Source: Planctomycetota bacterium (GTDB lineage: Bacteria; Planctomycetota; Phycisphaerae; Phycisphaerales; Phycisphaeraceae). Taken from it: 64,000 nt of DNA. Positions 37,072-54,782 of the stretch are shown here, one piece after another (positions within the stretch are counted from its first letter, which is position 1; every line of letters starts with the position of its first letter). The position numbers and the translations under genes were made by a program. Under the pieces are notes generated by a model that was not told where the DNA came from, made no database searches, and worked only from the letters and a program-made list of their open reading frames with translations. The stretch lies in the NCBI GenBank assembly GCA_016350165.1, contig CP066225.1, forward strand, positions 1,550,001 to 1,614,000, read 5' to 3'.

Positions 37072-37431
37072 TTGGGCAGAGACCATCGCAAATTAAGAGC
37101 ATTCGAGGCAGCAGACACACTCGCTCAGGTCGTGTACAAGGAAACAGCGGATTACCCAGAAGAAGGTTTGAAGACCATTCTTCGTAATGCAGCGATTCGC
37201 GTTCCTACAAACATTGTTGACGGTTGCGCTCGTTCAACAATGCGTGAGTACATCAATTGCCTGACGGTTGCGTTTGGTGCATTGCGTGAAGTTGGCTACC
37301 TCGTCGAGCTTTCCGAGAAGTTGGAATACATTGACGAAGAACGTTACGAAGTGATGAACGATGCGTATGACGAGTCAGCAAAGCTGCTGGCTGGGCTGAT
37401 CCGTTCTCTGAAGGAACGCAAGAGTGAGTAG
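37072..37431 (+). CDS. four-helix-bundle protein (23S rRNA intervening-sequence protein family)
   Basis: 119 residues with a TTG start supported by AAAGGAG 7 bases upstream. The pattern follows the S23/IVP four-helix-bundle family: FEAADTLAQVVYKETADYP, an NAAIRVPTNIVDGCARST turn in place of the common AAxSIxxNIAEG, YINCLTVAFGALREVGYLVE, and a last helix KLLAGLIRSL. These proteins were first met inside 23S rRNA intervening sequences, but most copies stand elsewhere and their role is unknown. Here it sits between two ketosynthase genes, and its stop overlaps the next GTG start by 8 bases, so it is translationally coupled. It could be an assembly or docking factor (inference). Confidence 0.82.
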   Translation: MGRDHRKLRAFEAADTLAQVVYKETADYPEEGLKTILRNAAIRVPTNIVDGCARSTMREYINCLTVAFGALREVGYLVELSEKLEYIDEERYEVMNDAYDESAKLLAGLIRSLKERKSE

Positions 37432-50288: not shown

Positions 50289-50865
50289 ATCAACTCTTTT
50301 CGCTTGGGCTCTCGATATCTCTATGTCTCTTCGACGATCCGCACAGCATCTCACACAGATTTATAGAGCAGCTACCCTCGGCGGCAAGCTGCTGGGTGTA
50401 AGACTATGTCATTCTGATAGTTTCGAGGGATACTGGCAAGCTGTGTGGAAGATTACGATCTGATAAATTGACGCAAATTATATGAACCACTACCCATATA
50501 TCTTTCGTATCATGTCTACCAACTCATTCGACTGAGAATTTATGTTTAAATCTCAGGCGCGTTTAGGGCTGTTAATCGCCTGAATATGAGAGATTTATAA
50601 AAGTAGAAATAGAGCGACCAGCTTTAATTGCCGAGAAATGCAGAGACAACGTTCTCATGGCGAACGTATTTGAGTTTTGTAGCAGGTGCACGAGTGCCAT
50701 TTAGTTAACTAAAGCCACATAAACTCAAACATTTTTTACTTACTTGGTCGCAAGATTTAGGTGCGTTAATCTGGGTTATTTATTAAGATAGGCGCACATA
50801 TCCATGGGGTGAGCAATATTTTCCACCCGTGAGGACACAAAGTCAGGAACAACCGATTCAGGAGC
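50289..50865. other. divergent promoter region, gpsA / exopolysaccharide locus
   Basis: 577 bases. It must contain promoters for gpsA (leftward) and for the export operon (rightward). AGGAGC directly precedes the ATG at 50866. No promoter pair or operator could be fixed by eye. Confidence 0.45.
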
Positions 50866-52332: not shown

Positions 52333-52366
52333 TTTCTAACTAAGATAGTTAGCAAAACAATTAGTG

Positions 52367-52568
52367 CGGCAAGATTTAACGATCTTGCCGTCACATTCGA
52401 AATTTGAATCAGTCTTCAAGGTGCCATCTGAGGTGGGAACGAACTTAAACAAGTTCAATTTTCAGATGGCACGTAGGGCACGGATCGCCCAGTGCGGGGC
52501 AGGATGCATTCTTTTCCGCACCAACAAGACAACATCCAAGGAAGGTTTACGACTGCAGCGTGTGCTGT
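52367..52568 (+). ncRNA. cluster of stable hairpins, candidate cis-regulatory RNA
   Basis: Within the 380 bases between the export gene and the exosortase gene. CGGCAAGAT / ATCTTGCCG (52367-52375, 52382-52390). GTGCCATCTGA / TCAGATGGCAC (52421-52431, 52462-52472) with an inner GAACTT / AAGTTC. GGGC / GCCC (52476-52490). GTGCGG / CCGCAC (52492-52497, 52516-52521). CAGC / GCTG near 52556-52567. None has a T tail. The rest of the gap (52333-52366, 52569-52712) shows nothing. I do not recognise a known riboswitch; cyclic-di-GMP classes were considered and their conserved cores are not visible. Confidence 0.4.
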
Positions 52569-52712
52569 AGCCGAAGGTTTATTTTTGAACCCGTATCAAT
52601 ACGATCTCGTAAAGATCAGAGGGTCAATCAAACACTGAAACCCAAATAGCCTCAGATGACTTTCATGCATTTTCTTAAGCATCATATGAGGAACGAGTAG
52701 AGCAGTCAGAGG

Positions 52713-54782
52713 ATGGACAACCCGATCCAAACACAAACACCCAAATCAGTTTCACTAGCTAACGCTTCGCTGATTCCCAATGAATTTAAGCCTTGGGCCA
52801 TAGCGATTGCCATCAGCTTTATTGCGCTACATTGGGCATTCCTTTGGCGTATGTATCTGATCGCTCGTTCAGATAACAACTGGTCACACGCATTAATCGT
52901 GCCAGTCATCTCACTCTATTATATATTCCAACATCGTAACCGACTCATGGCCACCCAAGCACGCGTCTGCCTGTGGGGCCTGCCCTTCCTTATCCTTGGC
53001 ATCTTTAGTTATATCTTTGGTGTTAATCCAATTCGTAATTTCATGCTCCAAGGATACGGCATGATTCTTGGCCTTTTTGGCCTCGTGCTATTCCTACTCG
53101 GCCCCAAAATAATGCGGGTACTTTGGTTCCCCATTTTCTATCTAGGCTTTGGCGTTAAGGTATCTCAACGAATCTGGGAAGAAATCGCAGTACAACTCCA
53201 GTGGATCGCCGCCAACTGTGCGACAGTAACATTGAAGTTTTTCTCTATCTTCATGGATTTTGAAGTCACAAACAGTGGCACGACTATTAGCCTGACTCAA
53301 AACAAAATTGATCCTTATAGCGGTATGCTCAGGCCATTTACAGAAAGCCTCAATGTTGCTGAGGCTTGTGCAGGCTTACGCATGCTCATGGCTTTCCTCG
53401 CCCTCGGTGTCGCAACCGCTTTTCTTTGGAAACGCCCAACGTGGCAACGCATCATCATGGTCCTCATGACCGTTCCAATTGCAGTCGCCGTAAACGTTGG
53501 CCGTGTCGCTGCTCTTGGCTTACTGACACTTATAAATCCTGAGCTAGCTAAAGGTGACTTCCACCTTTTCATCGGCATGCTCATGCTTGTTCCTGCTCTC
53601 GGCCTCTACCTGCTTCTTGGCTGGATCATGGACCACATCGTCATACAAGAAAAGCCTGCGGAAGATCCTGAAGAAACCTATAAACGTCAAGCCGCACAAC
53701 TCGCTTCCGAGCGTGTTCCACTTGACAAAATCAACATTGCTAAATTGGCAACATGGTTAGTAACTGGCGTCATCAGTATCGCAGCAGCCAGTGGCCTATA
53801 TCTGTTAATGATTGGAATCACCCCTCCAGCATTGCCATTAAGTGGTGCTGCAGGCCTTTTGGCTGGCGCCCTGGTAAAACTTTGCTGGACATTACTACCA
53901 CCAACTTTTGTTGCTTTAGGCATTGGCATTATCGCATACCGCTTCCTCTCCACAAATAGTGACAACAACATCCGCAATATTAAGCTTGCAAATACTGCTG
54001 CATACATCACAGGTGTTCTCGTAGTTGCGTTCATTGGTTTGGAAAGCATCAATGCATACACAGATTCAGTCTTGTTTAAAGAAGCTGTTCCACCACGTCA
54101 TCAACTGATGGTCGTACCTCGTAACCTTGCTGATTGGAAACTCAAACATGAAGACCCGCCACTCAGCAAAGAAATTCTGAGCGAACTTGGCACTAAAAAT
54201 TATGTCAGCCGCAATTACGAAAACACATCACTAGGTATTGATGACCCACAACGTTATGTACGCTTCCACTCTGCCTATTACACAGGCACAGTCGATACAG
54301 TGCCGCACGTCCCTGATCGTTGTTATGTCGCAGGTGGTGCACAAGCAAATAAAAGAGGAATCGCAAAGTTATCTATCAGCAATATGGATTACTTCAAAGA
54401 TGAAGACATCCCCGGTGGAACGCTTGCATACAGTACGATTCACAAAGGTGAAGTCCGAATCCCACAAACCAAAGACATTCCTGCATCATACATGATTTTC
54501 ACGCCTGCGAACCAACCGAAAGGGCAGGAACGCAAAGCAACTGTCATGTACTTCTTTGCGGCCAACGGTAAGTTCTTGGCCACCCCTGATGCAGTGCGTC
54601 TTAAAGGTACAGAAACAAGCGATAAATATAGCTACTACTGCAAGATCGAAGTCTTGGTGCAAACCGGCGACCTTGATCGTGCCAAAGAAGCTGCTGAGTC
54701 ATTCTTATCAGATTACATGCCTGAAATCATGGCCTGCCTTCCAGATTGGAAGGATGTTAAAGATGATAAATGGCCCAAATAA
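52713..54782 (+). CDS. exosortase fused to EpsI-type domain
   Basis: 689 residues. The N-terminal ~300 are an exosortase/archaeosortase: multiple membrane helices and the catalytic triad Cys219 in [15 protein letters not shown], Arg264 in [11 protein letters not shown] and His284 in [10 protein letters not shown]. After two or three further helices (about 345-465), the C-terminal ~220 residues form an EpsI (DUF3485) domain ([44 protein letters not shown]). Exosortases cleave PEP-CTERM signals and probably transfer substrates to an envelope acceptor; EpsI is a regular partner, here fused. Six PEP-CTERM substrates are encoded in the window. Confidence 0.92.

Follow-up and report, generated by a model that had tools for sequence, protein, structure and literature searches.

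The -10 element of SigW promoters is CGTA, sigma-54 promoters follow the -24/-12 pattern TGGCACG-N4-TTGC, and EAR is the antitermination RNA of Bacillus exopolysaccharide operons. According to the accessible part of a 2006 survey, proteobacterial PEP-CTERM genes are preceded by a sigma-54/PrsR motif that was found only in proteobacteria (Haft 2006, PMC1569441); in the same portion of the text the authors expect more regulatory proteins and DNA motifs still to be found, and exosortase regulation outside the proteobacteria is left open (PMC1569441). The epsC motif RNA lies in exopolysaccharide operons of Bacillus, as excerpts of its description have it (PMC2864571). For extracytoplasmic-function (ECF) sigma factors, the -35 elements are given as GGAACTT for RpoE and TGAAAC for SigW, with htrA/degP as a classical target of RpoE (sigma-E), in the available sections of PMC8103513.

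Here we describe the stretch separating the polysaccharide export and exosortase genes of a planctomycete, which resembles each of these systems in part. As far as the PrsR/sigma-54 motif is described in the excerpted source, both are conserved cis-regulatory sequences that serve a PEP-CTERM/exosortase system within a large noncoding gap, whereas the PrsR motif precedes the substrates and the motif found here precedes the exosortase gene and is ECF-like; the sigma-54 pattern, with up to two mismatches allowed, has no match in 52333-52712. The likeness to EAR/epsC, again on the partial description of that motif, is of a probable structured RNA on the coding strand of an exopolysaccharide operon, but here there is no Rfam match, a putative promoter follows and there is no sign of antitermination; the covariance model of EAR gave no match in the Rfam scans. 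With sigma-E/sigma-W promoters the motif has in common its GAAC-type -35 element, its CGTA -10 element and its presence at htrA/degP, and it differs from the sigma-E regulon in preceding an exosortase operon in planctomycetes, where the sigma factor that reads it is only a candidate. In the parts available of the literature on exosortase together with ECF sigma factors, and on ECF promoter motifs in Planctomycetes, we found no report of such a promoter.

The window, a stretch of 64,000 nucleotides, carries on its + strand the gene of a PEP-CTERM-type polysaccharide export protein (Poly_export/SLBB; Pfam PF02563 and PF10531; 50866..52332), which the NCBIfam EpsE/pepcterm_export models score below their cut-offs, and an exosortase gene of the EpsH family with DUF3485 (52713..54782, + strand; Pfam PF09721 and PF11984; NCBIfam 8TM_EpsH above cut-off), downstream of which lie a TPR gene, a tyrosine-kinase-type gene and sugar genes. 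The two genes are separated by 380 nt (52333-52712), against 16, 53, 50 and 16 nt for the later gaps of the locus, and the preliminary description of this stretch as the only large gap inside the locus is thus correct from the export gene onward. The gap sequence is single-copy in its own genome and has no tandem repeat and no plasmid match, and a 22-base piece of it has no exact match among viral contigs.

The closely packed stems that had been reported between the two genes are present, including one of 11+6 bp (52421-52472 enclosing 52441-52456), and they do lack T tails: the + strand of the gap has no GC-rich stem followed by a T run, as an intrinsic terminator would, and the terminator-like site that does occur is on the minus strand (52655-52635). 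All of the following lie on the + strand. Stem H1 (CTAACTA/TAGTTAG, 7 bp, 52336..52352), just 3' of the export stop codon, has a mean pair probability of 0.90, and its position is occupied in Poriferisphaera corsica (G001) by a stem of other sequence, judged by eye only. Stem H2 (3+9 bp, no T tail, 52364..52394; 9-bp arms CGGCAAGAT/ATCTTGCCG at 52367-52390) is predicted to form in both species, with four pairs altered on both sides yet kept and one lost. The fold, the two-species alignments and covariance model R1 suggest a possible multibranch RNA domain at 52408..52533, which can be shut by a closing helix (GTCTT, 52412-52416, with AAGAC, 52526-52530) that does not vary between the species and pairs weakly in P. 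corsica (mean probability 0.20). Within it, the stem listing gives H4 (11 bp, GTGCCATCTGA/TCAGATGGCAC, 52421-52431/52462-52472) with its inner 6-bp stem (GAACTT/AAGTTC, 52441-52446/52451-52456), H5 (GGGC/GCCC, 52476-52479/52487-52490) and H6 (GTGCGG/CCGCAC, 52492-52497/52516-52521). Downstream of the possible domain the gap has stem H7 (CTGCAGC/GCTGTAG, 52553..52570), which figures in the structural alignment and the pair probabilities as well. The inner 6-bp stem is absent from the window's minimum-energy fold (0/6 pairs, mean probability 0.19), in which the remaining named stems are all formed. For the whole gap the folding energy is -119.9 kcal/mol (z -5.6), a value reached by none of 100 shuffles. 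Its minus strand is also well folded (z -5.0), so that energy by itself cannot tell the strands apart. The 254 nt upstream of the promoter motif described below have a z of -6.8, the 101 nt downstream one of -1.1.

Comparison within the genus is between two sequences only, P. corsica being the sole other member compared. Its homologous gap is 374 nt long, and a noncoding block at 52474..52563 on the + strand is 82-95% identical between the species in 40-nt windows, compared with 76% for the export gene (54% at third codon positions), 64% for the exosortase gene and 33-42%, again in 40-nt windows, from 52594 on. An ATG frame at 52505 common to both species was rejected as coding, as 5 of its 18 codons differ and all the differences are nonsynonymous. 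Among 20 neighbouring intergenic stretches, taken between the genes of a hand-picked list, only two others contain 60 bases that are at least 92% identical; the first overlaps an open frame at 37072-37431 and the second adjoins the export gene upstream. The noncoding stretch just upstream of the export gene (50721-50811) is 95% identical to P. corsica over 60 bases and holds a long hairpin; the stretch belongs to no Rfam family, and of 51 genomes only those of the two genus members match it strongly.

In a hand structural alignment, which was fitted to the structure, 47 of 50 pairs are kept: 36 are identical in the two species, 3 differ on one side and 8 on both, while the other 3 are lost; the pairs with both sides changed still pair in 8 of 9 cases (P 0.002 under random pairing). 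When the 126-nt core is aligned by MAFFT, without fitting, three pairs are changed on both sides, a number reached in 54 of 500 shuffles. Because the first alignment was fitted and the second is matched by this many shuffles, the two-sequence covariation is suggestive and falls short of decisive. Counts of G-U against A-C (3 vs 2) leave the strand unsettled in this pair. The upstream segment of P. corsica has a z of only -1.9 and its whole-gap fold is without H4, which forms with 10/10 pairs (mean probability 0.96) when the segment before the -35 element is folded alone.

To extend the comparison beyond the genus, the exosortase query, which matched in 61 of 61 genomes, was used to read the best 30 loci, and 80 named loci were taken from a second collection. 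An export gene lies upstream at 30/30 and 70/80 of these, respectively, giving 100 junctions with gaps of 0 to 881 nt; removal of 16 duplicates and of 4 gaps no longer than 60 nt left 80 distinct gaps, with start codons at the junctions guessed by script. Six gaps of another genus (g8) have a common structured element, a three-way junction plus hairpins, in which 94.8% of cells are paired (21-39% in slid controls) and 8 pairs are changed on both sides; on each of five measures, none of 500 shuffles reached it, the structure having been derived from the same six sequences. Its 19 G-U cells against 1 A-C cell point to the + strand. Covariation of the same gap in relatives had been proposed as the check on the stems, and compensatory changes are indeed found, in the second species and in g8; their existence makes a selected RNA structure likely, and the gap hairpins are likely to be a real, conserved, folded RNA stretch.

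A single RNA family across all genera was considered and rejected. Covariance model R1, built on the RNA of the present genus, has strong matches only in the two genus members among 51 genomes, and R1 and R2, the models of the two elements, each strongly match their own genus only, once per genome, at the export/exosortase junction; weak extra matches occur in G018 (R2, E 0.004) and in G022 and G039 (R1, E about 0.4). By sequence comparison, then, the structured stretch kept at this junction differs from genus to genus. Rfam assigns no known family to the window, to the element upstream of the export gene or to 10 related loci, the last judged at gathering score. In the window every Rfam model stays below its gathering score, and the gap has only chance matches to snoRNAs (E 3.7 and 4.1).

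What many of these gaps do have in common was noticed by reading them side by side. In the window it consists of a putative -35 element, TGAACC (52586..52591, + strand, with GAACC at 52587-52591), and, 16 nt after GAACC, a putative -10 element, CGTA (52608..52611, + strand), both assigned by motif comparison. The pattern GAAC-N16..18-CGTA occurs in 61 of the 80 distinct gaps and is absent from 19, while dinucleotide shuffles contain it in 0.4 on average and in 3 at most (n=200). Spacers of 16, 17 and 18 nt after GAAC account for 14, 41 and 6 gaps, and spacers of 10-15 and 19-25 nt for 2 in all; matches on the + strand number 61 and on the - strand 1, and the density on the + strand of the gaps is 2.71 per kb vs 0.043 outside. 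CGTA lies 13-343 nt upstream of the start codon. The motif therefore has what marks an ECF promoter of the sigma-E/W type, AAC in the -35 and CGT in the -10 element at a fixed spacing, and it lies on the expected strand, ahead of the gene. Taken in a single genome, the motif is not rare (window 2 vs 1.2 expected; genome 18 vs 40 in a reversed control), and the evidence for a promoter is the motif's fixed place across species rather than rarity within a genome. Comparison thus establishes the motif, its strand, its spacing and its place, and gives good support to its assignment as the exosortase promoter, as which it would function.

The putative exosortase leader (52612..52712, + strand), whose start point would be a few nucleotides past 52611, is weakly folded and unconserved, and the strong stems, being upstream of the motif, would be absent from an exosortase mRNA started there. 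A similar division is seen in the related gaps: where 60 nt or more precede the motif (41 gaps), that part has a median z of -1.5 (17 below -2), the 51 leaders have a median z of -0.5 (9 below -2), and of the 35 gaps with both, 26 are more structured upstream. In loci L105, L106 and L116, and in L090, L095, L102 and L115, conserved alignable stretches extend past the motif into the exosortase leader.

The motif also occurs elsewhere. One of the 18 matches of the strict pattern in the own genome precedes a gene for an HtrA/DegP protease, orthologs of which were found in 28 of 31 genomes. Thirty such loci were fetched, the 11 weakest were left out, and 17 of the 19 counted (L203-L221) have the motif upstream, compared with 128 of 4000 random 350-nt windows (3.2%), the HtrA/DegP stretches searched being somewhat longer. 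The motif is accordingly common to the exosortase gene and a known envelope-stress target, as expected for this type of ECF promoter. A candidate reader is a SigW/RpoE-like sigma factor gene with an anti-sigma-like neighbour (G000:C1:1281268), which has the motif upstream, as do only 6 of 26 of its orthologs. Upstream of the export gene the motif is found in 9 of 50 cases, and an ECF-like site before the export gene at 50484 was discarded, as it is not conserved in P. corsica. Membership of the PEP-CTERM substrates in the same regulon was likewise rejected, with the motif within 400 nt in 0 of 30 loci examined among the at least 150 matches listed. These substrates are very numerous in the own genome, where the PEP-CTERM model has at least 150 matches over its cut-off.

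We put at roughly 60% the probability that the gap is the boundary of two transcription units, a genus-specific RNA ending the export transcript and the envelope-stress-type promoter of the exosortase operon following it. The first ~250 nt would be a strongly folded RNA at the 3' end of the export mRNA. We infer that its transcription comes from the export side and that it most likely shields or sets the end of that message, or is excised as a stable RNA. The last part would be the operon's own promoter, TGAACC-N16-CGTA, read by a sigma-E/sigma-W-type ECF sigma factor, so that the exosortase and the downstream genes would be switched on alongside envelope-stress genes such as that of the HtrA/DegP protease. 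Canonical terminator-like sites, found in 17 of the 80 gaps, lie between export gene and motif in 5, in motif-less gaps in 6 and after the motif in 6, and those before the motif or in motif-less gaps fit separate transcription units. Four long conserved gaps (L017, L043, L045 and L055; 570-717 nt) have an intrinsic terminator after the export gene and no GAAC-CGTA.

A doubtful alternative is that the element regulates read-through in cis, an attenuator, antitermination element or ligand sensor gating the exosortase operon, with the ECF promoter as a bypass. The flanking genes are on the same strand and the window's gap is without an intrinsic terminator, which makes read-through possible; the loops as well as the helices of 52474-52563 are more conserved than coding DNA; and in four related loci, L086, L109, L112 and L114, a terminator hairpin (GATCCCTGCC..GGCAGGGATC, T run) begins directly after CGTA, an arrangement that resembles a promoter-proximal attenuator. 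Such a regulator would nevertheless be dispensable given the promoter motif downstream, it would be single-copy, genus-limited and without an Rfam match, and no terminator/antiterminator pair was found in the window.

It is unlikely that the element is a small RNA acting in trans, whether transcribed from a promoter of its own or processed out of the export 3' UTR. The folded unit is compact, ends before the promoter motif and has strongly conserved unpaired stretches, but a consensus scan found no promoter of its own and there is no terminator at its end. Quite unlikely, too, is that the conserved block consists of DNA sites for activators of the ECF promoter, its hairpins being incidental. 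The most conserved stretch does lie ~25-110 nt upstream of the -35 element, where activators bind, and H5 and H6, being invariant, provide no evidence for RNA; against this, pairing survives in nearly all the pairs changed on both sides, and in group B pairs vary via G-U, not A-C.

The preliminary description had put forward a riboswitch, an RNA thermometer or an mRNA-stability element setting exosortase expression. A thermometer or riboswitch in the exosortase leader is very improbable: stems are present in the gap, but the ECF-type motif separates the strong ones from the gene, leaving a leader of low structure (z -1.1) and 33-42% identity, so that, if that promoter is the one used, the strong stems are not placed as an aptamer in a 5' leader would be. 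The lack of an Rfam family, the single copy and a model strong in only two genus members speak against a riboswitch, and the exosortase start showed no conserved pairing of the kind a thermometer would have; nothing supports either. A stability or boundary role survives as a possibility for the export transcript and falls for that of the exosortase. Chance folding, for which the two sequences in the genus leave some room, is next to excluded by the shuffles and by the conservation of the block above coding DNA.

More speculatively, and in our view rather improbably, the Poriferisphaera and g8 elements could belong to a fast-evolving class of riboregulators, found only at the export/exosortase junction and linking the export of exopolysaccharide to expression of the exosortase; alongside it, exosortase and HtrA/DegP would be joined in an ECF envelope-stress regulon spanning the order. 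The conserved RNA beside the promoter is a good candidate for a new noncoding RNA. An ECF-type exosortase promoter in common with HtrA/DegP raises the question of whether surface protein sorting in these bacteria may be part of the envelope-stress response, which would be testable in a cultured planctomycete.
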